Assembly: GCF_011065895.1 (NCBI RefSeq)
Contig: NZ_JAALCR010000028.1
Span: 1-64,000 of the forward strand
Direction of reading: 5' to 3'
Source of the DNA: Paludisphaera rhizosphaerae
GTDB taxonomy: Bacteria > Planctomycetota > Planctomycetia > Isosphaerales > Isosphaeraceae
Length of the DNA stretch: 64,000 bases
Part shown: piece after piece, positions 39,127-57,726 of the stretch
Layout of the letters: every line of letters begins with the position of its first letter
Position numbering within the stretch: position 1 is the stretch's first letter
Position numbers and translations under genes: made by a program
Notes under the pieces: generated by a model
Database searches by the model: none
What the model was told of the DNA's origin: nothing
What the model saw: only the letters and a program-made list of their open reading frames with translations

Positions 39127-39975
39127 TCAAGGGGCGGCGTCTTTCCAGGCGGCCGCCTCCTCGCCGTCCACCCGCAAAGTCAAACACTTGGCGCTGCCGC
39201 CCGACTTGATGAACTCGGAAAGGTCCAGCGTTCGCGTGGCATATCCCAGCCTCTGGAGATCCGCCGCCAGTCCCGGCGCTCCCTGGTTGAGAACGACCGT
39301 CCGGCCCACCACGACTGCGTTGCAGCTAAAGCTCTGGGCCTCCTCGGCGCGGACCTCCACGAGCGTCGGGATGCGTTCGCGAATCACCGCGCGGCCGTAT
39401 TCGTCGAAGGCTCCCGGATAGTAGATCGCCGCGTCGGGGGCGATCGGGCAGAAGCAGGTGTCGAGGTGATAGTAGCGCGGGTCGACCAACTCCATCGGCA
39501 GGACCTCCACCCCAAGCCGCTCGCCGACCCACTGGTGGCTCCTCACGTCGCTGCGGAAGCGATAGCCCGCGAAGAGGGTGTCGCCGCAGAAGAGGGCGTC
39601 CCCGGCCCCCTCGAAGTTCATCCCCTCGGGCGTCTCGATGATCTCGAAGCCTCGCGAACGGGCCCAGGCCTCGAAATGAGGCGTTTCCCCCTGCCTCACG
39701 CCGAACCGAAACCGCGACGGGATGAACAGATCACGGAAGACGACCCCGGCGTTGGCCGTGAAGACCAAATCGGGCAATCCCTTCACCGGCGTCATCAGGT
39801 CGACGTCGACTCCCAAATCGACCAGCGTCCGCTCCAGGGCTTGCCACTGGGCGGCGGCGCGTGCGGGATCGCTGCCGTGCTCGACGCTCATCCACGGGTT
39901 GATCTCGTACTCGATCCCGAAATAATCGGGCGGGCACATCAGGATCCGAGGCTGGGACGACTTCGCAACGGTCAC
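39127..39975 (-). CDS. Arginine dihydrolase-like guanidino-group-modifying enzyme
   Basis: The 282-residue protein has the pentein fold of the arginine deiminase/DDAH superfamily. Candidate catalytic residues are N26 (INPWM), N75 (VFTANAGVV), E122 and D126 (FEGAGDAL), H170 (RYYHLDTCFCPI) and C264 (GGSAKCLTL). The pattern, including both Asn residues, matches the N-terminal domain of cyanobacterial AgrE/ArgZ, which converts arginine to ornithine, CO2 and ammonia. The GTG at 39975 overlaps the stop of the LOR/OCD gene by four bases (GTGA), fixing the start. In cyanobacteria the two parts are fused; here they are separate genes. Plain DDAH-like activity is the alternative. Confidence 0.8.
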   Translation of the reverse strand: MTVAKSSQPRILMCPPDYFGIEYEINPWMSVEHGSDPARAAAQWQALERTLVDLGVDVDLMTPVKGLPDLVFTANAGVVFRDLFIPSRFRFGVRQGETPHFEAWARSRGFEIIETPEGMNFEGAGDALFCGDTLFAGYRFRSDVRSHQWVGERLGVEVLPMELVDPRYYHLDTCFCPIAPDAAIYYPGAFDEYGRAVIRERIPTLVEVRAEEAQSFSCNAVVVGRTVVLNQGAPGLAADLQRLGYATRTLDLSEFIKSGGSAKCLTLRVDGEEAAAWKDAAP

Positions 39976-41225
39976 GACGGGGCCCTCTCGGTGGTCAGCT
40001 CCGCGGCCAGCGAGCGGAGGAACGGCTCGACGTCGGTCACGATCCCGATCGTCTGGAACGACCCGCGATCGGCCAGCTTCGTGACTGTGGCCGGGTTGAT
40101 GTCCACGCAGACGACCTTCACCCACGCCGGCAGCAGGTTGCCGGTGGCGATCGAGTGCAGGGCCGTCGCAATGCAGAGCGCGAAGCCCACATCCTTCACC
40201 GCCTCGCGCATCCGGTCCTGGGCCACGAGAACGTCGGTGATTACGTCGGGCAGGGGGCCGTCGTCGCGGATCGAGCCGGCCAGCACGAAGTCGACCCCTT
40301 TGCGGACGCACTCGTACATGATCCCCGAGGTCACAACCCCCTTCTCAACGGCCGCCTTAAGACTCCCCAGCCGACGGACTGTGTTGATCGCCCGTAGATG
40401 ATGCTCGTGGCCGTGCTCGATCGATTCCCCCTTCGCAATCGAGACGCCCAGGCTCGTGCCGAAGAGGGATTGCTCGACGTCGTGGGTCGCCAGGGCGTTG
40501 CCCGCGAAGAGGGTTTGGATCCAGCCTTCACGGACGAGCTTTGAGACGTGCGGCACCGACCCTGTGTGGACGATCGCCGGCCCGCCGACCAGCAGCACCT
40601 TCTTGCCGGCCTCGCGAGTCGCCCGGATGCCGTCGGCGACGCCTTGGAGGCTGACCGCCTTGGGTTTTTCGCTGGAGACGTTCGAGGACATGAAGCCGAA
40701 GAGCGACGTCTCCCGCGGCCGTTCCTCGGGGAGCACCCGGACTCCGGCGTGGCCGACGACGATCGGGTCGCCGACCTTCACGTGGACCATCGGAATGCAC
40801 CGCGCCGAGCCGACGACCGCGTCCAGGAGGATGCCGCAGTCCATCTCCTGATCGTCCACGTCGATCCAGCGCCCCTTCACGCGAACCTGGGTGCGCTGGT
40901 TGGTCGTGCTGTAGAAGTCCTCCGGGAAGGCCGTCGCCACGTCGGCGGGAACGACGCGCGCGTCCGCCGGATGCAGCGGCGAGGCCCCGTGCTCGACGAG
41001 GTCGCCGATGATCTCGGCCACCGCTTCGGGCGTGTCGGCCCGAACGGCGATTCGCGCATAGCTTGGGTCCGACCGACGAGCGCCGATCTTGCACTCGTGG
41101 ATCTCGAACGTTCCCCCCATCTGGAGGATCCGGTCGAGGATCTTCGGGAGCAGGAGCGAATCGACGATGTGCCCCCGGACCTCGATCTCGTCGACGGCCC
41201 CGGTCTTCTTCTCGGCGTTCGACAT
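39972..41225 (-). CDS. LOR/SDH bifunctional-region protein, ornithine cyclodeaminase-like
   Basis: The 417-residue protein matches the TIGR00300-type family found as the C-terminal domain of cyanobacterial AgrE and as archaeal ornithine cyclodeaminase. Visible features are the N-terminal VDSLLLPKILDRI segment and FEIHECKIG with PSYARIAV, the central CGILLDAVVGSARCIPMVHVKVGD, then a Rossmann-like KVLLVGGPAIVHTGSVPHVSKL, FAGNALATHDVEQSLFGTSLG, GHEHHLRAINTVRRLGS and VVCVDINPATVTKL. The likely reaction is ornithine to proline plus ammonia with NAD as cofactor. It precedes and overlaps the arginine dihydrolase-like gene by four bases, so the pair would run arginine to proline. Confidence 0.88.
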   Translation of the reverse strand: MSNAEKKTGAVDEIEVRGHIVDSLLLPKILDRILQMGGTFEIHECKIGARRSDPSYARIAVRADTPEAVAEIIGDLVEHGASPLHPADARVVPADVATAFPEDFYSTTNQRTQVRVKGRWIDVDDQEMDCGILLDAVVGSARCIPMVHVKVGDPIVVGHAGVRVLPEERPRETSLFGFMSSNVSSEKPKAVSLQGVADGIRATREAGKKVLLVGGPAIVHTGSVPHVSKLVREGWIQTLFAGNALATHDVEQSLFGTSLGVSIAKGESIEHGHEHHLRAINTVRRLGSLKAAVEKGVVTSGIMYECVRKGVDFVLAGSIRDDGPLPDVITDVLVAQDRMREAVKDVGFALCIATALHSIATGNLLPAWVKVVCVDINPATVTKLADRGSFQTIGIVTDVEPFLRSLAAELTTERAPS

Positions 41226-41294
41226 GGCCTCGGCTCCGCGGAAGTTACTTCGAACCCTCGGAAACTCCCAATCGATTGCCTCGTGGACTCAGAA

Positions 41295-41461
41295 GTCCCC
41301 TCTCCCCCCGGGAGAGGGCAGCCGCGCAGCGGCGGGTGAGGGTTGTGGGCGTTCGGAGGGCGTGTTGGACGCAGGTGATCAAAAACCCTGTCGCTATGCC
41401 TACAGGTCCGATGACCCTCACCCGGCCCTTCGGGCCACCCTCTCCCGGCGGGAGAGGGGAC
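41295..41461. repeat. 167-bp MITE-like element with palindromic ends
   Basis: Positions 41295-41343 and 41415-41461 form an inverted repeat of about 47 bases, beginning TCCCCTCTCCC and ending GGGTGAGGG in the first arm. Each arm is itself palindromic (CTCTCCC/GGGAGAG). The 71-base centre shows nothing else. The element resembles short intergenic repeats seen widely in bacteria. It lies between the OCD gene promoter and the cystathionine gamma-lyase gene. Confidence 0.75.
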
Positions 41462-41490
41462 CTGGGAGGGCTCCGCCCACCTCGGAATCC

Positions 41491-42663
41491 TCACTCCCCC
41501 AATCGATCCAGCGCCTGCTCCAAATCCGACCGAAGATCCCGCACGTCCTCAATCCCCACGCTCAGTCGGACAAGCCCGTCGTCCACGCCGCGCGCAGCGC
41601 GCACTTCGGCCGGGATGCTGGCGTGGGTCATGGTCGCCGGGTGCGAGATCAAGGACTCTACGCCCCCCAGGCTCTCGGCCAGGCTGAACAGTCGGGTGGA
41701 GGTCAACAGTTTCCGCGCCGCGGGCCCGCCCCCCTGGAGCCGGATGCTGATCATGCCTCCGTACCCGTTCATCTGCCGGCCCGCCAGGGAGTGGCCGAGG
41801 TGCTTGAACAGGCCCGGATAGTAGACGCGTTCGATCTCCCGCCGCGACTCCAGCCAGGACGCCAGCTCGATGGCGTTGGCGTTGTGCCGCTCCATGCGGA
41901 CGGCCAGCGTTTTCAGACCCCGAAGCGTCAGCCAGGCGTCGAACGGGCCAGGGACGCCGCCGGCCGCGTTCTGGTAGAACTTGATCGGCTCCAGCAGATT
42001 TTTCGGCCCCATGACGGCCCCGCCGACGACATCGGAGTGGCCGCCGATGTATTTGGTCGTGCTGTGGACGACGAGATCGGCCCCGAACCGAATCGGCTGC
42101 TGGATGTAGGGCGAGGCGAACGTGTTGTCCACCGCCAAAATCGCCCCCGCCTCATGGGCCACCCGCGCGACGCCTTCGATGTCCAGAATCTGGAGCAGCG
42201 GGTTCGTGGGAGTCTCGATCCAGATCATCCGCGTCTTCGAGGTCGTCAGCGACTTGAACGCGTCGGGTGCGGAATCCTCCGTGTATCGCGGGATAATCCC
42301 CATCGGCCGGCAGACGCGTTCCAGCAGGCGATAGGTGCCCCCGTAGAGGTCGGCTGAGGCGACGATCTCATCGCCGGGCCGAAGCGTCGAGAGAACTGCC
42401 GTTGAGGCGGCCAGGCCCGAAGCAAACGCCAACGCCTGCTCGGCCCCTTCGAGCGAGGCCAGGCAGGTTTCAAGCGCCGCGCGGGTCGGGTTGCCGCTGC
42501 GGGAGTACTCGTATCCCTTGTGGCTGCCCGGGGCCTCCTGGGTGAACGTGGAGGTCGCGTAGATCGGCACAACCGTCGCGCCGGTGGTCGGGTCGGCCTC
42601 CTGGCCGACGTGGATGGCCCTGGTGGCAAAGCCCAAAGTCGTCTTGGTCGATTCCTGGCTCAT
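41491..42663 (-). CDS. Cystathionine gamma-lyase/gamma-synthase family PLP enzyme
   Basis: The 390-residue protein is a Cys/Met-metabolism PLP enzyme: TRAIHVGQEADPTTGATVVPIY, YEYSRSGNPTR, ASGLAASTAV, the PLP contact LAVDNTFASPY and the lysine K204 in HSTTKYIGGHSD. The C-terminal SLAESLGGVESLISHPATMTHA is also typical. Because it follows the cystathionine beta-synthase gene by 14 bases, the likely step is cystathionine to cysteine (reverse transsulfuration). The synthase and lyase cannot be separated by eye. Confidence 0.9.
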   Translation of the reverse strand: MSQESTKTTLGFATRAIHVGQEADPTTGATVVPIYATSTFTQEAPGSHKGYEYSRSGNPTRAALETCLASLEGAEQALAFASGLAASTAVLSTLRPGDEIVASADLYGGTYRLLERVCRPMGIIPRYTEDSAPDAFKSLTTSKTRMIWIETPTNPLLQILDIEGVARVAHEAGAILAVDNTFASPYIQQPIRFGADLVVHSTTKYIGGHSDVVGGAVMGPKNLLEPIKFYQNAAGGVPGPFDAWLTLRGLKTLAVRMERHNANAIELASWLESRREIERVYYPGLFKHLGHSLAGRQMNGYGGMISIRLQGGGPAARKLLTSTRLFSLAESLGGVESLISHPATMTHASIPAEVRAARGVDDGLVRLSVGIEDVRDLRSDLEQALDRLGE

Positions 42664-42677
42664 CGGACGAGGCTCCG

Positions 42678-44027
42678 TCAGGGCTTGCCGTTGCGGTTCC
42701 AGTATTGAACGAGGTCGATCCGCGTGACGATGTCCACGACCGCCCCCTCGGCGACGGCCAGAACCCCCGTGTTGCCGGCGAGCAGCAGACGATACGCCTC
42801 GTCGAGATTCGTCGACACGTCGAGTTGGGGCAGGGGACGGGCCATCACCTCGCCCACCTTGACTTTCGAAGGGTCCCGGCGATCGTGGAGAATCCGGGCG
42901 ACGGTCACCTCCTGGATGCTTCCGACCGCCACGCCGTGGCTCACGACCGGCAGTTGCGAGATCCCCGCCTGCTGCATGGCGTCGACGGCCTCGCGCACGG
43001 TGGTCTCAGGCGCGACAGCGGTCAGCGTCCGAGGGCCGCGGTGGCGGAGCAGGTCGCCGATCGAATCCCGAGGCGCTTCCTCCCAGGCCAGGCCGGCTTC
43101 CGTCAGCCACTGGTCGTCAAAGAACTTGCTGAGGTAGTTACGTCCGGTGTCCGGGCAAAGTGCGACGACCAGGTCGTCGGCCGTCAGTCGGCGGGCGTAC
43201 CGCAGGGCCGCCGCGACGGCCGTGCCGCTGGAGCCGCCGACGAGCATCCCCTCCTTGCGGGCGAGTTGCCGGGCGACGTGGAAGGCCTCAGCATCTCCCA
43301 CGCGGACCCACTCGTCGACGACATGGCTGTTGAGCGTCTTGGGGACGAAGTCCTCGCCGATCCCTTCCACCTTCCACGGCTTCGGCGAGTCGCCCGAGAG
43401 GACCGAGCCCTCGGGGTCGGCCCCAACGATCCGGATGTCGGGGTTCTTCTCCTTGAGATACTTGCCGACGCCGGAGATCGTTCCGCCGGTCCCCGCGCCG
43501 GCGACGAACGCGGTGATCCGGCCGCCGCTCTGCTCCCAGATCTCGGGCCCGGTGGTCCGGTAGTGGACGTCCGGGTTGGCGAGATTCGCGAACTGGTTGG
43601 GACGCCAGGCGTCGGGGATCTCGCGGGCCAGCCGGTCGGCGACGCCGTTGTAACTCTCCGGCGAGTCGGGCGGGACGGCCGTCGGGGTGACGACGATCTC
43701 CGCCCCATAGGCGGTCAGCAGACGGATCTTCTCCGCGCTCATCTTGTCCGGCAGGACGAAGATGCAGCGGTATCCCTTGACTGCCCCGGCCATCGCCAGA
43801 CCGACGCCCGTGTTGCCGGCGGTCGCCTCGATGATCGTCCCGCCCGGCCGGAGGTTCCCACGCCGTTCGGCCTCCTCGATCATCGCCAGGCCGACGCGAT
43901 CCTTGATGCTGCCGCCGGGGTTCAACGATTCCAGTTTGACCGCGACCGTCGCCGCCAGCCCCTCGGCGAGCCTGCGCAACGGAACGAGCGGCGTCCGACC
44001 GACGAAATCCAGGATACTTCCCTGCAT
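42678..44027 (-). CDS. Cystathionine beta-synthase with C-terminal CBS pair
   Basis: The 449-residue protein has the fold-type II PLP domain: NPGGSIKDRVGLAMI with the PLP lysine K42, the ATAGNTGVGLAMAG loop, AGAGTGGTISGVGKYLKE phosphate-binding motif and GSSGTAVAAAL. Residues about 325-445 contain two CBS repeats (TTVREAVDAMQQAGISQLPVV and DVSTNLDEAYRLLLAGNTGVLAV), which in this family bind adenosyl ligands. The reaction is serine plus homocysteine to cystathionine. It is the first gene of a two-gene unit with the gamma-lyase family gene. A plain cysteine synthase would lack the CBS pair. Confidence 0.93.
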   Translation of the reverse strand: MQGSILDFVGRTPLVPLRRLAEGLAATVAVKLESLNPGGSIKDRVGLAMIEEAERRGNLRPGGTIIEATAGNTGVGLAMAGAVKGYRCIFVLPDKMSAEKIRLLTAYGAEIVVTPTAVPPDSPESYNGVADRLAREIPDAWRPNQFANLANPDVHYRTTGPEIWEQSGGRITAFVAGAGTGGTISGVGKYLKEKNPDIRIVGADPEGSVLSGDSPKPWKVEGIGEDFVPKTLNSHVVDEWVRVGDAEAFHVARQLARKEGMLVGGSSGTAVAAALRYARRLTADDLVVALCPDTGRNYLSKFFDDQWLTEAGLAWEEAPRDSIGDLLRHRGPRTLTAVAPETTVREAVDAMQQAGISQLPVVSHGVAVGSIQEVTVARILHDRRDPSKVKVGEVMARPLPQLDVSTNLDEAYRLLLAGNTGVLAVAEGAVVDIVTRIDLVQYWNRNGKP

Positions 44028-48819: not shown

Positions 48820-49023
48820 TCAGCCGTCGCTGCGGATGGCCTCGACGGGGCAGGCCTCGGCGGCCTCGTCGTAGAGTTCGCGCTCCTCGGGGGTCGCTGG
48901 GGCGCGAAGGACCTCGCTGCGGCCTTCCTCCTCGTTGCGGACGAAGAGTTGGGGGGCCGTCTCGTGGCAGAGGTCGCAGTCGATGCAGTCTTCGTTGATG
49001 TAAAAGGGGCCATGTCGGATCAT
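48820..49023 (-). CDS. Single-cluster 4Fe-4S ferredoxin
   Basis: The 67-residue protein has C13-x2-C16-x2-C19 (DCIDCDLCHETAPQLF) and C58-P in EACPVEAI, which is the pattern of a small ferredoxin with one [4Fe-4S] cluster. It would carry electrons in the cytosol. Its 3' end faces the Rieske oxygenase gene, so a partnership is attractive but not shown. Convergent placement means that the two are not cotranscribed. It begins 18 bases after the zinc-ribbon protein stop and could be in that operon. Confidence 0.85.
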   Translation of the reverse strand: MIRHGPFYINEDCIDCDLCHETAPQLFVRNEEEGRSEVLRAPATPEERELYDEAAEACPVEAIRSDG

Positions 49024-49041
49024 CGTGGTGCGCCACCAGTT

Positions 49042-49980
49042 TCAACGGGGATCGTCGTCAAGGGCCGGCTTGTAAGCCACGTCTTCCAGGGATTCGGCCT
49101 GAGCCTCCCAGTAGAAGAGAAACAGGACGATGGAGCCGAGAGAGCCGAGGACGCCGAGCAGACTGTCGGCGACCGCTCTGATAATAGGATCGGCCAGAAG
49201 TCCCGTATCGTCGAGAAGCCCTCCCACAACGACCGAGACGAGCCCGATGATGAGGATCACGCCGCCGGCCCCCGCGACGATCCGCCAGGCCCTCCCGGCG
49301 ACGAGCCTCGCGCTGCGGCGCCTGGAGTCAAGGATCGGGGAGTGTTCGAGGACGATCACCTCGTCGACGAGGCAGTAGTAGACGTAAAGGATCAGCGCGG
49401 GGATCGCCCCGAGGAGACGAATCACCGGCGGCAGGCCGACCAGGAAAAAGACCACCCCGGCAGACAGGACGAAGAAGGTCGCCACGACGCGCGCCGCGAA
49501 GACCCGCCACCAGGCTTCGACGCCCGCACGGGCGACGTCCTGGAATGTCGATCGACGGCCGGACATCCGCTCGGCCAGCAAGACGATCAGGCCGGCGGCC
49601 GTGATCGGGCCGAAGAAGAGGTCGACGACGAGCTTCATCGGGATCGAGGCCAGAGGGTCGCCGCCCAGGCCTTCGCGCTCGACGATCAACTCAGCGGCGA
49701 TGTTCCCGGGAAGGCGAATCATCAGCACGAGCGCGGCGATCACCGGAAGCTGCTCGAAGAGGAGCCGCAGCGCGGTTGCGATCTTCGCGGGCGTCGTGGG
49801 GGGGACGGTCAGCGGCTCAAAGCCGCGTCCCTCGACGTCGGCCGGATGGGCGTCCCGGTCGACGAATTCGGCAGGTTCGCCGACGCGTGCGTCGCAATAC
49901 GGGCACGCGCCGGCGGTCGCCTCAAGTCGATCGCGGGTCAAGAGCGCCCGGCATTTCGGGCACTCCCAGTAGCTCCGCAT
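49042..49980 (-). CDS. Zinc-ribbon membrane protein, unknown
   Basis: The 312-residue protein starts MRSYWECPKCRALL (C7, C10) and GACPYCDAR (C26, C29), forming a zinc ribbon of the kind common in planctomycete membrane proteins. Five or six transmembrane helices follow from residue 65 (for example LFEQLPVIAALVLMIRLP, VVATFFVLSAGVVFFLVGLP, GVILIIGLVSVVVGGLL). The function is unknown. It is 18 bases downstream of ilvC, and the ferredoxin follows 18 bases later, so the three probably share a transcript. Confidence 0.8.
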   Translation of the reverse strand: MRSYWECPKCRALLTRDRLEATAGACPYCDARVGEPAEFVDRDAHPADVEGRGFEPLTVPPTTPAKIATALRLLFEQLPVIAALVLMIRLPGNIAAELIVEREGLGGDPLASIPMKLVVDLFFGPITAAGLIVLLAERMSGRRSTFQDVARAGVEAWWRVFAARVVATFFVLSAGVVFFLVGLPPVIRLLGAIPALILYVYYCLVDEVIVLEHSPILDSRRRSARLVAGRAWRIVAGAGGVILIIGLVSVVVGGLLDDTGLLADPIIRAVADSLLGVLGSLGSIVLFLFYWEAQAESLEDVAYKPALDDDPR

Positions 49981-49998
49981 GGGAAGAAGTCTCGAAGA

Positions 49999-51078
<1,080 letters not shown>

Positions 51079-51083
51079 TCAAC

Positions 51084-51182
51084 CGGGTGGCATGGCCACG
51101 CTGGCGTGGCCATGGACCGGTGCTGGAAGTTCGACGATCCGTCGCCGATCGCATGCCCACGCGAGCGTGGGCATGGCACCCG
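51084..51182. repeat. Paired REP/BIME-like palindromes between ilvN and ilvC
   Basis: CATGGCCACGC-TG-GCGTGGCCATG (51091-51101, 51104-51114) and CATGCCCACGC-GA-GCGTGGGCATG (51152-51162, 51165-51175) are two 11-bp inverted repeats of slightly different sequence in one element, flanked by GGGTGG and GGCACCC. They match the units at 28169-28265 and 17449-17511. Location inside the ilvN-ilvC unit suits differential expression within an operon. Confidence 0.85.
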
Positions 51183-51228
51183 TTGCGCGACCCTCGCGAG
51201 GAACTCGTTCAGGGTCGCCGGGGGAAAC

Positions 51229-51849
51229 TCAAAGCTCGGAGTGGCCGTGGACCATGGGGGCGGCGTCCTCGACGGGCGTCGGGGCCGGCTCGTCGGGTTC
51301 GTCGAAGCGGGGGAGGCCGCGAACGAGAGCGATCCGGCCGGTGCGGGCCAGCTCCAGAATGCCGTACTCGCGGACGGCCTCGACGAACGCCTCGACCTTC
51401 TTCTCCTGGCCGGAGATCTCGATCATCAGCGTCTCGGTCGTGACGTCGACGATCCGCCCGCGGAAGATCTGGACGATCGACTGGATCTCGGTCCGGTTGG
51501 CGGCGGTGGCCTTGATCTTGATCAGCATCAGGTCGCGCTCGACGAAGTCCTCGCTGGAGATGTCGTGGACCTTGACCACGGTCACGATCTTCTCAAGCTG
51601 CTTGCGGACCTGTTCGAGATAGCGCTCGTCGCCGCGGACGACCACGGTGATCCGCGAGAGATCCGGGGCTTCGGTCTCGCCGACGGCGAGGCTGTCGATG
51701 TTGAAGCCCCGCGAGGCGAACATGCCCGAGACGTGGGCCAGTACGCCGGGGCGGTTCTGTACGAGGGCGGAGAGGACGTGGCGGTTGCCCCTCGTCTGCG
51801 AGGGCTGCTTGGCGGAGGACGTCGAGGTCTGAGCCTTATCGTTTGCCAT
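51229..51849 (-). CDS. ilvN: Acetolactate synthase small (regulatory) subunit
   Basis: The 206-residue protein has the ACT domain of IlvN/IlvH: LSALVQNRPGVLAHVSGMFASRG with SLAVGETEAPDLSRITVVVRG, followed by the C-terminal ALS small subunit domain (VKVHDISSEDFVERDLMLIKI, GRIVDVTTETLMIEISG). It controls the catalytic subunit by valine feedback. GGGGAAGTGG precedes the ATG. The catalytic ilvB gene is not in the window. The N-terminal 20 residues (Thr/Ser/Gln-rich) and the C-terminal tail are longer than usual. Confidence 0.95.
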   Translation of the reverse strand: MANDKAQTSTSSAKQPSQTRGNRHVLSALVQNRPGVLAHVSGMFASRGFNIDSLAVGETEAPDLSRITVVVRGDERYLEQVRKQLEKIVTVVKVHDISSEDFVERDLMLIKIKATAANRTEIQSIVQIFRGRIVDVTTETLMIEISGQEKKVEAFVEAVREYGILELARTGRIALVRGLPRFDEPDEPAPTPVEDAAPMVHGHSEL

Positions 51850-52003
51850 CACCACTTCCCCAGGGATCGGCGGCCTCGCCGCCGGCTGGCGTCGTCCGGG
51901 TCTCGGCGACGCATCGGTTTCGGAAATCTGAAGTCGTACAAGGCCGGACGCGTCAGTGTACCACAACTCGGGCGGTTGCCGACACGTCGACCTAGAACAG
52001 AGG

Positions 52004-52043
52004 CGACCCCGCCCCGCCGGGTTCGGTCCGGCGGGCGGGGTCG
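52004..52043 (-). terminator. Strong bulged hairpin terminator of the Gld-like operon
   Basis: CGACCCCGCCCCGCCGG (52004-52020) and CCGGCGGGCGGGGTCG (52028-52043) form a near-perfect 16-bp stem with one bulged C and a 7-nt loop. It lies 38-77 bases after the DUF4340 stop on the minus strand. On the plus strand it is followed by GAGGCTTTT. It probably separates the operon from ilvN. Confidence 0.7.
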
Positions 52044-52080
52044 GAGGCTTTTCAGCAAGGTCGGGCCGTCCGGACCGTAC

Positions 52081-53601
52081 TCAGTGGCCGGGGATCGAGA
52101 AGCCCGGCGGCAGACCGCCGGCGCCGCCCGGGAAGCCGGGAGGCATGGCGCCGCCGGGGGCCGCGGTCTTGGGCTTCAGCGGGACGACCAGCGCCGCACG
52201 GTCCAGGTCGACGGAGCGGAAGCTGTCGCCGGGGGTGACGTAGTACCAGGCGGCGAAGCGATCGGTCAGCTCCTGGGCCCGCTTCTTGCCATCGGCGACC
52301 TTCTTGTCGTAGTCGGCCTTCTCGCGTTCGGCCTTCAGCTTGGCGGCCTTCTCCTCGGCCGGGTCGGCGGCGATGACCTTGTCGGGAAGCTCGCCCGGGG
52401 CCGGGGAGGGATCGGCCAGCGGTTCGGCCTGGGGCGCGGGGATGAGCGCGGGGTCGAAGGCGACGGTGACCATGACGTAGCGGTTGTCGGCCGCGCCGCC
52501 GGAGGTCTTCTCGTCCTTCTTGGCGGCGTCCTTCTTCGCCTCGGCGTCGTCGCGCTCGCCGGCCGTCAGCTGGTCGCCGACGCCCAGGGCGACCTCGCCG
52601 AAGCGGAGGGTGTAGACCACGCCGTCGTCGCAGTAGGCCCGAACGTCTCCCTGGTTGGACAGGAGCTGGTTGTCCTTGGTCATGTAGAAGCCCTTCCCCT
52701 GGAGCGAGGCGAGGGCCTGCGTGGAGATCGTGATGCCGCTGCCGTCGTCCTTCTTGAGATCGCGGGTCAGGCCGGCGGGCTTGGAACGGACGCCGACGAT
52801 CTTGAGGTCCGACAGAGTGTTCGTCAGGGTCCGCAGCTTGTCGTCGTCAAGCTGCATTCCTTCGGGGAGGCCGCCTACGAGCGTCCAGGGGTCGGTCGCG
52901 TTCTTGCGCTCGATATCCAGGACTTCGCCCTTCTGATAGCCCTGTTCGAGGTTGACCTTGTAGTCGTCGAACTCGACCTTGCGGAGCTTGCTGGCGTCCA
53001 GGCCCAGGAGGTTGGTCTCGATCCAGTCCGCGAACTTGGTGGAGGGCTCGGCCTTGAGCTTCACGCCGTAGATCCGGTTCTTGCCCGGGACTCGGACGTA
53101 ATACTCGTCGGTGCGGTCCTTGATCTTGCCGCCGATGATGAAGTCGGCGAGCACCTTTTCCGAGGCGTCCCGCAGAGTGATCCGCTTGCCGCGGCCCTTG
53201 AGCGAGGGTGCCTTGGCGTCGAGCGGGTCGACGACCCCCATCTTCTCCTGATCGTCGGGGGCGTCCGACCGGATCGTGTCCTTGGTCAGGTCCATGAGCG
53301 CCGCGGCCGTCTTGGAGAGGCGGTCGCGGGCGTCGGCCGGGTAGCCGTAGTGGGACGGGATGACCCACTTGTTGTTCTGGAACTTGACCTGGAACCGCGC
53401 GGCCGTGGCCGTGGACGGGTCGTAGTCGACCACGTCCAGATCGGTGCAGGCCAGGGGGTCCTTGAACTCGGGGAAGAACGGCTGGCCCTGGTCGGAGAAC
53501 GTCTCGGGCCGTGCGGTGTAGTCGCGGGTCGCGATCATCGCCATCCCGGTCAGCACCAGGGCGACGGCCGCGAAAACGGCGGTCTTGCCTGTCTCGGTCA
53601 T
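52081..53601 (-). CDS. DUF4340 domain protein of Gld-like ABC system
   Basis: The 506-residue protein has one N-terminal transmembrane helix (KTAVFAAVALVLTGMAMIA) and a periplasmic DUF4340 region with repeats such as DPLDAKAPSLKGRGKRITLRD, VLADFIIGGKIKDRTDEYYVRVPG and LRKVEFDDYKVNL. Near residues 350-460 it has a charged low-complexity region (AEAKKDAAKKDEKTSGG, DPAEEKAAKLKAEREKADYDKK), and the tail is Pro/Gly-rich (GGAMPPGFPGGAGGLPPGF). It is the last gene of the ATPase-GldFG-DUF4340 operon. DUF4340 proteins usually accompany Gld-like ABC transporters; their role is unclear. Confidence 0.87.
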   Translation of the reverse strand: MTETGKTAVFAAVALVLTGMAMIATRDYTARPETFSDQGQPFFPEFKDPLACTDLDVVDYDPSTATAARFQVKFQNNKWVIPSHYGYPADARDRLSKTAAALMDLTKDTIRSDAPDDQEKMGVVDPLDAKAPSLKGRGKRITLRDASEKVLADFIIGGKIKDRTDEYYVRVPGKNRIYGVKLKAEPSTKFADWIETNLLGLDASKLRKVEFDDYKVNLEQGYQKGEVLDIERKNATDPWTLVGGLPEGMQLDDDKLRTLTNTLSDLKIVGVRSKPAGLTRDLKKDDGSGITISTQALASLQGKGFYMTKDNQLLSNQGDVRAYCDDGVVYTLRFGEVALGVGDQLTAGERDDAEAKKDAAKKDEKTSGGAADNRYVMVTVAFDPALIPAPQAEPLADPSPAPGELPDKVIAADPAEEKAAKLKAEREKADYDKKVADGKKRAQELTDRFAAWYYVTPGDSFRSVDLDRAALVVPLKPKTAAPGGAMPPGFPGGAGGLPPGFSIPGH

Positions 53602-53664
53602 CGTCGGTCGGTCCTCTTCAATTCGTCTGCGTATCTCGTCGTGGACGCTGGGAACGACCTTCGG

Positions 53665-56433
53665 TCAGGCCATCCGCTTGGGGCTGGCGCCGAGGTTCTC
53701 GCGACGGAGGCGGCCCAAAAGCACGAGCAGGCCCAGGATCATCGGCGGGAGCGGCGGGACGAACGCGGCCAGGTAGCGAACCCGGTTCTCGATCGCCCGC
53801 GTCTTGCGCTCGGACTCGGCGCGGCCCTCGCGGATCTTGTTCAGCTTCTCGTCCTCGATCTTCTGCTTCTCGACGTCCAGCCGGCGCTGGGCGACGTCCT
53901 GGAGATTGGCCAGCATGATCTCCTTGGTCCGCTCGTCGAGGTCGGTCCGAGCCTTGACCTGTTCGACCTGCTTGTCGAACGCCTTCTGGGCGCCCTCAAG
54001 CTCGGTCTTGGCGGCGTCCTCGGCGACCTTGGTCTGGGCGTTGAGGTCTTCGAGGAAGTTGGACGTCTGGGCCTCGATCGTCGTCAGCGTCCGGTGCTCG
54101 GGCCGCTTGCCGCGAAGCGCGATGAACGACTCGTCGCCGGCCAGCACGTCGACGCAGTTGAGGACGAACGTCACGTTGTCGAAATCGAGGTTCTCGATCT
54201 TGCGACGACGGATTTCGAAGAACTGCTCGGAGACCATGTCGAGGTCGGCGATGGCGATGACGTTGATCGTCCCCGGCTTCGCCTCCTTGGCCGCTTCGTC
54301 CTTCTTCTCAGCAGGCTCAGCCTTCTTGGAAGGTGCGGCGTCCCCCTTCACTCGGGCGGCCAGGGTGTAGGCCGTATTCGTCGCGAAGTGGCGACGGCGC
54401 GGGTTGATGCCGCTGACGCCCATGAAGCCCTGCTGAACGGCCTCGGACCACTCGACCACGCCCCCCTTGGGACTGGTGCGGAGCAGGGGGGTGAACTCCG
54501 GCGAGCCGCCGCCGTTGCGCGAGCGGAGCAGGCCGGGGAACAGGGCGACGATCTCCTGGAGACCCGCCGACGCGGCCTGGTCGGGATTGAAGGCGTCCTT
54601 CGCGCCGCTCCCCTTGCCGATGAAGACGACCTCCGGGGGCATGTCGGCGAGTTGCGGGTGGGGGTTGTAGCTGTTCCAGACGATCTCAGTCGTCGGCCAT
54701 TCGACGTTGATCAGCTCCAGGAGTTCCTTGAGGTCCCCCTTGGGCTCGGGAGGCTGGCCGCCGCCGAACGGCCCGCCGGCTGGCTGGCGAGGAACCTCGG
54801 GGGCGATCTGCGGGTTGTCGACGGGGAACGGATCCATCAGCAGCAAGGTCGCGCCGCCGGCCTTGACGAAGGCCGTCAGGTTGTCGATCTGCGGCTGGGT
54901 CAGCGACGACGGTTGGGCGACCAGCAAGACGCCCAGGTCGGTCGCGATCGGCGCGTCGGGCGAAACCGAGCTGACCTCGTACTGCTTCTTCAACTCGGTG
55001 ACGATCGACCACTCGGGCGACTGACCGAAGCTCCGCTGGTCGAAGCCCCCCATCAGCTTGGCGTCGGTCGAGAGGATGCCCACCTTCTTGCGGGCGCTCC
55101 GCGAGGCCACCTGGATCGATCGGGTCAGTTCGTACTCCACCGGCAGGCCGCGGTCGAAGAAGGGGATGACCACCTCCTCCAGGCCCGACGTGAAGGCGAC
55201 GCCCAGGAAGATCTCCGAAGAACTCTGCTTGGCCTGGTCGGCCGAGAAGACCCGCTTAGGCTCGATACCGAACTGCTTCTCCGCGTCGCGGGCGGCCGTC
55301 GAGAAGGTCTCGGTCGGGATCAGGTTGAGCTGAATCCGGCCGCCGCTGCGGGCCTGGATCTCGTTCAGGTAGCGGAGCAGGTCGTTCTTGGTCTCCACGT
55401 AGTCTCGGGGGACCTCCGGGCTGTAGAAGGCCTGGATCAGAACGGGGCGGTCGGCGGGGATCTTGCGGATCAGCTCGATGGTCTCGGGCGAGAGCGTATT
55501 CAGGCCCTCGCTGCTGGCGTCGACGCGCCCCCCGATCAATCGGCCGACCAGCACGTTCGCGCTGAAGAGGGCCAGCAGCAGGCAGAGGAACCGGATAGCT
55601 GCATGACCTGCGCGTCCTCGACCAGCCTCGCCGCCCGTCCAGTGGCGACGGCCCAGCAGCAGCATGTTCAGGTAGAGCATCGCCGCCGTAAGGCTGACGA
55701 AATAGAAGAGCCCGGAGAGCGGGATCACCCCCTCGCCGAACGGGCTGAACTGCTGCGGGACCGACCAGCCCTCAAGCTGCCGACGGAGGTCGCCGCCGGT
55801 GGGCGAGCCCAGGTAGCCGATGAAGATCGGCACGGCGCAGAAGAGGGCCCCCAGGATGAACGCCACCGTCACGTTCGACGACAGCAGCGAGGCCACCATC
55901 CCCACCGCGATCAGCAGCGCCCCCATCAGCCAGTAGCCCAGGTAGGTGGAGAACATCACCCCCATGTCGGGCCTTCCCAGGTACCAGAGCACCAGCAGGT
56001 GGCTCATCGAGAAGAGCAGGGCGACCGTATAAATCCCCAGCGCGGCCAGGTACTTGCCCAGGACGACGTCCAGGTCGTGGGCCGGCAGCGTGAAGAGGAG
56101 TTCGTCGGTCCCCTGCCGGCGCTCGTCGGCCCACAGGCTCATGGTGATGGCCGGGATGAAGAAGAGCAGCAGATACGGCATGTACCGGTTGAGCTGATCC
56201 AGGTTCGCCAGGTTGTTCGTGAAGAACTCGTCCCGCCAGAAGGCGACGGCCGACGAGATCAGCACGAACAACGTGATGAACACGTAGCCGGCCGGGTTGC
56301 TGAAGTAGCTCTGCAGGTTCCGCTTGAAGACGGCCCCGACGACGTGGGGGCGGAACGGGTGGATCGCGGCCCGACCGGATCGGTCGACGTCGGGCGCGGG
56401 CTGCTTGCCGGGTTCGGTCTGGAGCGTGGCCAC
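53665..56433 (-). CDS. Fused GldF-GldG-type ABC-2 permease protein
   Basis: The 922-residue protein has an ABC-2 permease at residues about 25-260: RNLQSYFSNPAGYVFITLFV, MPYLLLFFIPAITMSLWADE, FTLPAHDLDVVLGKYLAALG and further helices. After residue 275 there is a GldG-like (IFT52-like) periplasmic region with ALFSANVLVGRLIGGRVDAS, LNTLSPETIELIRKI and ADLGVLLVAQPSSLTQPQIDNL-like segments. Residues about 830-890 are a coiled coil, and a final helix is near 895. The operon would export an unknown substrate or serve in motility-like secretion. Gld names come from Flavobacterium, where these genes are needed for gliding. Confidence 0.87.
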   Translation of the reverse strand: MATLQTEPGKQPAPDVDRSGRAAIHPFRPHVVGAVFKRNLQSYFSNPAGYVFITLFVLISSAVAFWRDEFFTNNLANLDQLNRYMPYLLLFFIPAITMSLWADERRQGTDELLFTLPAHDLDVVLGKYLAALGIYTVALLFSMSHLLVLWYLGRPDMGVMFSTYLGYWLMGALLIAVGMVASLLSSNVTVAFILGALFCAVPIFIGYLGSPTGGDLRRQLEGWSVPQQFSPFGEGVIPLSGLFYFVSLTAAMLYLNMLLLGRRHWTGGEAGRGRAGHAAIRFLCLLLALFSANVLVGRLIGGRVDASSEGLNTLSPETIELIRKIPADRPVLIQAFYSPEVPRDYVETKNDLLRYLNEIQARSGGRIQLNLIPTETFSTAARDAEKQFGIEPKRVFSADQAKQSSSEIFLGVAFTSGLEEVVIPFFDRGLPVEYELTRSIQVASRSARKKVGILSTDAKLMGGFDQRSFGQSPEWSIVTELKKQYEVSSVSPDAPIATDLGVLLVAQPSSLTQPQIDNLTAFVKAGGATLLLMDPFPVDNPQIAPEVPRQPAGGPFGGGQPPEPKGDLKELLELINVEWPTTEIVWNSYNPHPQLADMPPEVVFIGKGSGAKDAFNPDQAASAGLQEIVALFPGLLRSRNGGGSPEFTPLLRTSPKGGVVEWSEAVQQGFMGVSGINPRRRHFATNTAYTLAARVKGDAAPSKKAEPAEKKDEAAKEAKPGTINVIAIADLDMVSEQFFEIRRRKIENLDFDNVTFVLNCVDVLAGDESFIALRGKRPEHRTLTTIEAQTSNFLEDLNAQTKVAEDAAKTELEGAQKAFDKQVEQVKARTDLDERTKEIMLANLQDVAQRRLDVEKQKIEDEKLNKIREGRAESERKTRAIENRVRYLAAFVPPLPPMILGLLVLLGRLRRENLGASPKRMA

Positions 56434-56550
56434 CGCGGGTTTCCTCTTAGTGTTGCGTCGAACGGTCGAAACGAGCGGCGGGGGCGTCGGCGGCTTCGAC
56501 GCCGGCCCCGGCCAGTGGGCGATGGATGTCGGTCGCTGCGACGGCCGGCC

Positions 56551-57279
56551 TCAAACGGGCTGGGCCGTCAACTTGTAGAAGGACTCTTCAAGCGAGCCGT
56601 TGCGCTTGGCCAGTTCGGCCGGAGCGCCGTCGAAGACGAGCTTGCCGTCGTGGATGAACAGAACGCGGCCGGCGATCGGTTCGACCTCTTGCAGAATGTG
56701 GGTCGAGACCAGCACGGTCTTGGTCTTCCCCAGATCGCGGATCAGGGCGCGAACGCCCCGGATCTGGTTGGGGTCGAGGCCGCTGGTGGGCTCGTCGAGG
56801 ATCAGGACCTCGGGGTCGTGGAGGATCGCCTGGGCCATCGACGTCCGCTGGCGATAGCCCTTGGAGAGCTTGCCGATGGCTTTATGAGCGACGGTCCCCA
56901 GTGCGCACTGGTCGACGACCGCATCGAGGCGATCGCGAAGCCTCGCGCTGGACATCCCTCGGGCGGCGCCGAAGAACTTGAGCAGCCCGAGGGGGGTCAT
57001 GTCGGTGTAGAGCGGGCCGTTCTCGGGGAGATACCCCAGGCGCTCGGCGGCGGCGATCCGATCGGACTGGACGTCGATCCCGGCGATCCGGGCCTCGCCG
57101 TGAGTCGGGGCCGTAAAGCCGGTGAGCAGTCGCATGGTGGTCGTCTTGCCCGCGCCGTTGGGGCCGAGGAAGGCAACGACTTGCCCCTTGGGGATCGTGA
57201 ACGACACGTCGCGGACCGCCAGAAACGACCCGAATTGCTTGCAAAGTCCGTCGGCTTCGATCATGACCGGCGTAGACAT
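56551..57279 (-). CDS. ABC transporter ATP-binding protein, Gld-like
   Basis: The 242-residue protein has Walker A FLGPNGAGKTTTMRLLTGF, Q-loop LGYLPENGPLY, the signature LSKGYRQRTSMAQAI and Walker B VLILDEPTSGLDPNQI, followed by the switch His in VLVSTHILQEVEPIA. It belongs to the drug/Gld-type export group. It starts the minus-strand operon with the GldFG fusion and DUF4340 protein (117-bp and 63-bp gaps). An alternative is an ABC-2 antibiotic exporter. Confidence 0.93.
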   Translation of the reverse strand: MSTPVMIEADGLCKQFGSFLAVRDVSFTIPKGQVVAFLGPNGAGKTTTMRLLTGFTAPTHGEARIAGIDVQSDRIAAAERLGYLPENGPLYTDMTPLGLLKFFGAARGMSSARLRDRLDAVVDQCALGTVAHKAIGKLSKGYRQRTSMAQAILHDPEVLILDEPTSGLDPNQIRGVRALIRDLGKTKTVLVSTHILQEVEPIAGRVLFIHDGKLVFDGAPAELAKRNGSLEESFYKLTAQPV

Positions 57280-57726
57280 GCCGATTCACCCCTCCCAGAC
57301 CATGGAAAGCGCCGAGGCCGGCCGCTCGACGCGGCCCGGGCCGACGCGGGGCGGCCCGGCGGCCGATCGCGGCCGCCCCCCCTCGGATGTACCTACCCTC
57401 GCACTCGCGGACCGCGCGGACGCCGGGCGTCCAGCATCGATACGCGACTCCGGCGGAAGAGGTTCATTATGCGCCGGCCGCCCGGACGACGCAACCGGAC
57501 GAACCGACCGCCGAAAACTCATAGAAAGCCTTGGATGTCATGATTGACGCGACCCCTCTGTCCGAATAATCTCAAAGTTAGTCACATCGGAAGTCCCGCG
57601 TCGTATGAGTTGGATCAAGGAGGAGTGCCGGCCGCCGGCCCGCGTCTCCTCCCGCATCGCGGTTTCGTGCATCTCAAACCCCACGCTCGATCGCTCCAGA
57701 ACGATCCCCTTGAGGGAGTACCTTTC
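57280..57726. other. Divergent intergenic region, ABC ATPase and DUF1549 gene
   Basis: No gene in 447 bases. It must hold divergent promoters for the Gld-like operon and the DUF1549/DUF1501 pair. The last 15 bases carry GAGGGAG, the ribosome-binding site of the DUF1549 gene. The sequence at 57530-57580 is comparatively A/T-rich and could be a promoter. Confidence 0.6.

Follow-up and report, generated by a model that had tools for sequence, protein, structure and literature searches.

A predicted two-protein route from arginine to proline in Paludisphaera rhizosphaerae and related planctomycetes

Results and Discussion

We analyzed a 64,000-nucleotide stretch of the Paludisphaera rhizosphaerae genome (hereafter, the window), in which two neighboring genes appear to form a unit of two enzymes for arginine catabolism. 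One product, P0002, would act as an ArgZ-type arginine dihydrolase: using Cys264 as the nucleophile, it would hydrolyze arginine and yield ornithine, CO2, and two ammonia. The other, P0001, would convert ornithine to proline and ammonia. A PutA-like protein would then oxidize proline towards glutamate. We assign a probability of roughly 85% to the arginine-to-ornithine-to-proline chemistry of the two proteins. The first-pass annotation had proposed this route, and it is still the likeliest reading of the sequences; it is best supported because P0002 falls with ArgZ in the phylogenetic tree, both genes occur together almost without exception in the class (94 of 148 genomes carry both), and the active-site positions of ArgZ that were compared are conserved. 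From these comparisons we infer the substrates, the products, the cofactor use, the co-translation, and the catabolic direction of the pair.

Structure of the locus

Both genes lie on the minus strand. The cyclodeaminase gene of the TIGR00300 family, P0001, occupies 39972..41225, encodes 417 aa, starts with ATG, and ends with TCG-TGA, while the ArgZ-type dihydrolase gene, P0002, occupies 39127..39975, encodes 282 aa, and starts with GTG at 39975..39973. As read from the sequence, the stop codon of P0001 and the start codon of P0002 share a GTGA at 39972..39975 on the minus strand. The first-pass annotation had described two domains encoded by separate genes, joined by a GTGA overlap, in the order opposite to that of AgrE, and both frames agree with this description. 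A possible ribosome-binding site for P0002, GAGAGGG, is located at 39983..39989 (minus strand), 7 nt before the GTG, and inspection of the reading frame placed the next in-frame ATG within the conserved ILMCPP motif, making the GTG start plausible. Scanning for promoters and terminators gave nothing useful on the coding strand of the gene pair.

Family assignment of the two proteins

P0001 scored 536 bits against the NCBIfam profile TIGR00300, over the equivalog cut-off of 410.8, across positions 5-404 of 407, and also matched the Pfam models Saccharop_dh_N and ArgZ-like_C. It aligned with the C-terminal region of AgrE (361 bits, E 6e-107) and with the solved archaeal structure 3c2q (342 bits, E 3e-101). 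By family, P0001 is thus a predicted TIGR00300 ornithine cyclodeaminase, and an archaeal protein of this type, MMP_1218, is reported to convert ornithine to proline (PMC10809761, citing Burnat 2019).

The best solved relatives of P0002 were Sll1336 (ArgZ; E 4.7e-77) and Alr4995 (AgrE; E 2.9e-75), and the crystallized DDAHs were far weaker matches (best E 5.9e-11). P0002 was 48% identical to the ArgZ domain. Against NF052232, which represents arginine dihydrolase (the ArgZ/AgrE N-terminal domain), it scored 289.6 bits, missing the equivalog cut-off of 450 by 160 bits, and against NF045659, the dimethylargininase of the Mtb type, it scored 277.2 bits, under the cut-off of 300. The score is therefore only 12 bits nearer the arginine dihydrolase model, and because it lies below both NCBIfam cut-offs, the substrate of P0002 must be argued from other evidence. 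Scores of the class relatives against NF052232 ranged from 276 to 307 and the domain of a fused planctomycete gene (G077) reached 350; only ArgZ itself passed, with 531 bits, and the model may thus be tuned to sequences from cyanobacteria.

When P0002 was aligned with AgrE/ArgZ, a check suggested by the first-pass annotation, every ArgZ active-site position compared was conserved (N26, N75, R94, E122, H170, D172, and C264). Most of these positions are also common to relatives outside the ArgZ group, and the catalytic Cys, His, and Glu occur throughout the guanidino-modifying superfamily. In the solved ArgZ variant 6juz, Ser replaces the Asn that aligns with N75.

We then compared 105 aligned homologues, comprising one ArgZ, 78 of 80 named loci, seven rows from the phylum scan (six from the class and one fused), and 19 others, taken from genomes of planctomycetes in which TIGR00300 had no strong match; the named loci were picked as the best matches to the group alignment, and their uniformity is partly a product of selection. 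N26 was Asn in all 105 rows, including the 19 without a strong TIGR00300 match, and in those 19 the position of N75 was Asn in 15 and Asp in four. Both residues had been offered as hallmarks of arginine dihydrolase; their presence holds but their discriminating value does not, and as proof of an arginine dihydrolase they are ruled out, being common to outside relatives. Within this alignment, the ArgZ-like rows are instead separated by the residue after N75 and by the two residues before the catalytic Cys. The former is Ala in ArgZ, in 77 of the 78 named loci, and in all seven phylum-scan rows; the 19 outside rows carry Gln, Ser, or Pro at this position. Before the catalytic Cys, ArgZ-like rows have Ala or Cys followed by Lys, whereas the 19 have Val, Ile, or Pro followed by Phe (13), Lys (4), or Tyr (2). 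All 18 more distant phylum homologues that we read have AN at the place of N75 and GGS-x-FC at the Cys, and nine of these come from genomes with a TIGR00300 gene.

Phylogeny and gene fusion

A careful tree was constructed from 67 rows, namely 24 unfused, four fused or ArgZ, five actinobacterial, 30 other planctomycete, and four "GDS" rows, in which a single cyanobacterial row represents all ArgZ/AgrE and other actinobacteria represent the M. tuberculosis protein. Midpoint roots serve drawing only. The unfused and fused/ArgZ rows were set apart from all other rows with support of 99/97, and this branch joined P0002 to the single ArgZ row and to the three fused genes of planctomycetes. The unfused rows formed one clade (99/90) and the fused/ArgZ rows another (100/97). 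The same two groups appeared in a quick 103-row tree without actinobacteria, with support of 97 and 98; that tree did not resolve their order relative to a third group.

Of the five actinobacterial rows, four carry the annotation dimethylargininase and one has none. Together they formed a clade separate from P0002, and no cyclodeaminase was annotated within 4 kb at the four annotated loci, where the gene tables are incomplete. In Nonomuraea gerenzanensis (L176, 4001-5979), the gene directly after a homologue of this clade matches AstC of E. coli (36%, E 6e-68); similarly, Rv2323c is described as sitting in a cluster with rocD (PMC4569260). The dimethylargininase name given to members of this clade may be wrong, and they too may produce ornithine.

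Fused AgrE-type genes with the dihydrolase domain first were identified in three planctomycete genomes (L169 in G287, L170 in G311, and L010 in G077). The G077 gene, from outside the class but within the phylum, scored 965 bits against NF052231, the bifunctional AgrE/ArgZ family, for which the cut-off is 1025. Because these genes group with cyanobacterial ArgZ, the AgrE-type fusion, as judged from sequence, is not confined to cyanobacteria. NF052231 describes one polypeptide with the dihydrolase first, an arrangement that P0001 and P0002 do not have.

Distribution of the gene pair

Among 148 genomes of the class, 94 carried both genes, two the dihydrolase alone, three the cyclodeaminase alone, and 49 neither; a dihydrolase homologue was thus found in 96 and TIGR00300 in 97 (Fisher's p 6e-33 for co-occurrence, with kinship ignored). 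The exceptions were G213 (a 40% homologue), G278 (its match touches the edge of a contig), G226 and G294 (TIGR00300 matched in part), and G280. Related genomes tend to keep or lose both genes together, and the pair is common to most of the class sample, not peculiar to the Paludisphaera rhizosphaerae genome. The genes were adjacent in 52 of the 94 genomes with both, 50 in the P0001-P0002 order and two fused (G287 and G311, single frames with the dihydrolase first). In four more they lay within 5 kb. Another 19 genomes carry them on a shared contig at distances from 11.6 kb to megabases, and the remaining 19 carry them on separate contigs. Assembly breaks may account for some of these last cases; in G251 and G285, for example, the dihydrolase sits at a contig edge.

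Scanning genomes with the group alignment matched at least 588 stretches and at least 536 relatives, of which the best 80 were analyzed. The fetched DNA contained a TIGR00300 gene at 47 of these 80 loci (many other loci end early), and in 46 of the 47 the cyclodeaminase gene lay upstream in the same orientation, no more than 500 bp away in 45 of the 80. A 4-base overlap was found in only 4 of the 46 loci with the cyclodeaminase gene upstream, which rules out the GTGA-type overlap as a conserved feature. Among the best 80, the pair occurred in assemblies named Planctomycetota, Verrucomicrobia (with Spartobacteria and Chthoniobacterales), Nitrospirae, Thermodesulfovibrionia, Chloroflexi, and Deltaproteobacteria, most of them metagenome bins for which some names may be wrong. 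The nearest relative among the matches listed was Paludisphaera soli JC670 (86%). At one locus (L091, JAIXLE010000066.1), in a bin named Bacteroidales, the dihydrolase was 61% identical to P0002, within the planctomycete range, and this contig is possibly mis-binned.

Two further genes stand side by side on the minus strand of the window, a cystathionine gamma-synthase-type gene (41491-42663) and a cystathionine beta-synthase gene (42678-44027), both assigned by profile match, and both recur beside the pair in Paludisphaera soli. In the 6 kb flanks of the best 80 loci, the beta-synthase was matched once (Paludisphaera soli), the gamma-synthase twice, and a kinase five times; with flank matches in 1/80 and 2/80 loci, a larger operon with the cystathionine genes is not supported. 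Between the cyclodeaminase and gamma-synthase genes lies a 181-base imperfect palindrome (41290-41470), which as RNA would fold at -118 kcal/mol (z -6.9), holds two copies of CCCTCTCCCnnnGGGAGAGGG, the only ones in the window, and gave no Rfam match. It looks like a mobile or REP-like repeat. Elsewhere in the window, a 2864-aa open frame on the plus strand (48949-57543) gave no Pfam match and lies opposite a real-looking transporter gene on the minus strand (53665-56433; ABC_transp_aux). This frame is probably a shadow frame in GC-rich DNA.

Nickel-pincer nucleotide genes

NCBIfam names TIGR00300 as nickel-pincer-nucleotide (NPN)-dependent. The host genome encodes LarB (274 bits), LarC (211 bits), and LarE (327 bits), each over its family cut-off; these proteins make the NPN cofactor that is thereby assigned to the predicted cyclodeaminase. 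Two distant homologues of the LarA superfamily are also encoded (G000:C12:115694-116569 and C13:122603-123721; 119 and 68 bits, cut-off 460), and the host Lar genes therefore need not serve the cyclodeaminase, which weakens them as a specific sign of it in this genome alone.

We therefore turned to 199 planctomycete genomes, taking as presence of TIGR00300 a match under E 1e-50, a threshold of our choosing by which G003, with TIGR00300 fragments at E 2e-21, was not counted as a carrier. LarC was found in all 40 genomes with TIGR00300 and in 107 of the 159 others; among genomes without a LarA match (1e-10), it was found in 23 of 23 with TIGR00300 and in 61 of 104 without, kinship being ignored in both comparisons. 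LarA anchors NPN through a Lys, and a similar anchor is not evident in the cyclodeaminase family, because no strictly conserved Lys occurred in the TIGR00300 columns with a listed conservation of at least 98.5%. No paper linking NPN with ornithine cyclodeaminase was found in open-licence PubMed Central, and the pathway may nevertheless have been published elsewhere. Many cyanobacteria are reported to make NPN without LarA and hence to use it in an unidentified protein (PMC11796402). Taken as a whole, we consider it fairly likely that P0001 uses NPN.

Fate of proline

AgrE is described as converting arginine to proline, one CO2, and three ammonium, after which PutA makes glutamate (PMC8262935). 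In the host genome, a proline dehydrogenase domain lies in a PutA-sized frame of 1055 aa; this domain occurs in 135 of the 148 class genomes and is thus not specific to the pair. The host also has ProC (293 bits), which rules out the pair as its sole proline source.

Across the phylum sample, ProC was present in all nine genomes scored with both TIGR00300 and an ArgZ-type dihydrolase; seven of these belong to the class, in which ProC occurred in 12 of 12 sampled genomes regardless, and one (G145) has a stop inside the dihydrolase match. Another 31 genomes had TIGR00300 without an ArgZ-type dihydrolase, nine of them with a distant homologue not of the ArgZ type. Seven of the 31 had ProC and 24 lacked it (e.g., G016, G029, G035, and G045), compared with 102 with and 57 without ProC among the 159 genomes lacking TIGR00300. 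In those 24 genomes the cyclodeaminase may have replaced ProC. This distribution suggests to us that genomes with the pair use it catabolically and that the cyclodeaminase elsewhere in the phylum serves to make proline.

Alternative explanations

The first-pass annotation had presented the route as split into two coupled genes. Both trees rule out a split AgrE, since the unfused genes form a clade of their own, present in several phyla, and ArgZ is joined by the fused genes of planctomycetes. It is highly improbable that the pair derives from an AgrE that was taken up from cyanobacteria and then broken or secondarily split; fused genes do exist in the same phylum (G077, G287, and G311), which would favor it, but the gene order is reversed relative to AgrE, the unfused clade (99/90) stands beside a clade uniting fused planctomycete genes with ArgZ (100/97), and assemblies from several phyla contain unfused pairs. 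Also unlikely, if less so, is that P0002 is an arginine deiminase or a dimethylarginine dimethylaminohydrolase giving citrulline, with P0001 using ornithine from elsewhere. The dimethylargininase score near its cut-off is in keeping with such an enzyme, as is the conservation of the catalytic Cys, His, and Glu, which is superfamily-wide. However, P0002 groups with ArgZ, apart from the four actinobacterial genes annotated as dimethylargininase, and citrulline would not feed the partner gene, which 94 of the 99 carriers possess together with the dihydrolase. We regard as equally unlikely a dihydrolase for another guanidino compound, which would make ornithine or a relative without arginine as the main substrate: the shortfall on the arginine dihydrolase model would fit it, and AstB shares the ANA motif, so that the motif does not fix the substrate, but all compared ArgZ positions are kept and P0002 groups with ArgZ.

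A further alternative accepts the same chemistry and is compatible with the arginine-to-proline reading, differing in that the unit would mainly supply proline instead of releasing nitrogen. This is possible but rather unlikely. The absence of ProC from 24/31 genomes with TIGR00300 and no ArgZ-type dihydrolase, against 57/159, speaks for such a role, whereas the host itself has ProC, as do 9/9 phylum genomes with both genes (7/9 from the class), and the host carries a proline dehydrogenase domain, though one widespread in the class.

Extending the arginine-to-proline reading to the class, we tentatively suggest, at somewhat less than even odds, that arginine breakdown there is an unfused, nickel-dependent two-protein route, shared with several phyla, in which a dihydrolase from an unrecognized clade, sister to ArgZ, supplies a cyclodeaminase that uses NPN and is encoded in the order opposite to AgrE, and that elsewhere in planctomycetes a partnerless cyclodeaminase took over from ProC as the proline maker. 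If the proposed pathway operates, arginine would serve directly as a nitrogen source, with no need for arginase plus urease or for deiminase and carbamate kinase, and proline formation would require a nickel cofactor. Because P0002 falls below both curated cut-offs, current pipelines may misname it. The occurrence of linked, unlinked, fused, and stand-alone versions in one phylum offers a natural test of ornithine channelling, and genomes that have TIGR00300 and LarC yet lack a LarA match would be places to seek the non-LarA NPN user that PMC11796402 points to.

Comparison with known systems

The E. coli N-succinylarginine dihydrolase AstB, which has dihydrolase chemistry, shares the ANA motif with P0002 (ANAA, with Asn at 110); a profile comparison of the two, made to place N75, gave no convincing full-length match (probability 3.8%). 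Unlike the free-arginine route proposed for P0002, AstB acts in a succinylated pathway (ast genes). The Mtb-type dimethylargininase (NF045659; Rv2323c and actinobacterial relatives) belongs with P0002 to the same INPWM-type branch of the guanidino-modifying superfamily, but its relatives form a separate clade, and the five actinobacterial rows have ANGA or ANAA together with KCCTL. The stand-alone archaeal cyclodeaminase (MMP_1218 type; 3c2q) is of the same TIGR00300 family as P0001 and likewise unfused, whereas the planctomycete gene is paired with an arginine dihydrolase gene. Closest are AgrE (Alr4995, Anabaena) and ArgZ (Sll1336, Synechocystis), in which both domains are alike and from which the same overall conversion of arginine to proline would be expected. 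By sequence, the planctomycete pair is a variant of this ArgZ/AgrE chemistry, in which the two proteins are separate, the cyclodeaminase gene comes first, and the unfused dihydrolase rows form a sister clade to the fused genes.
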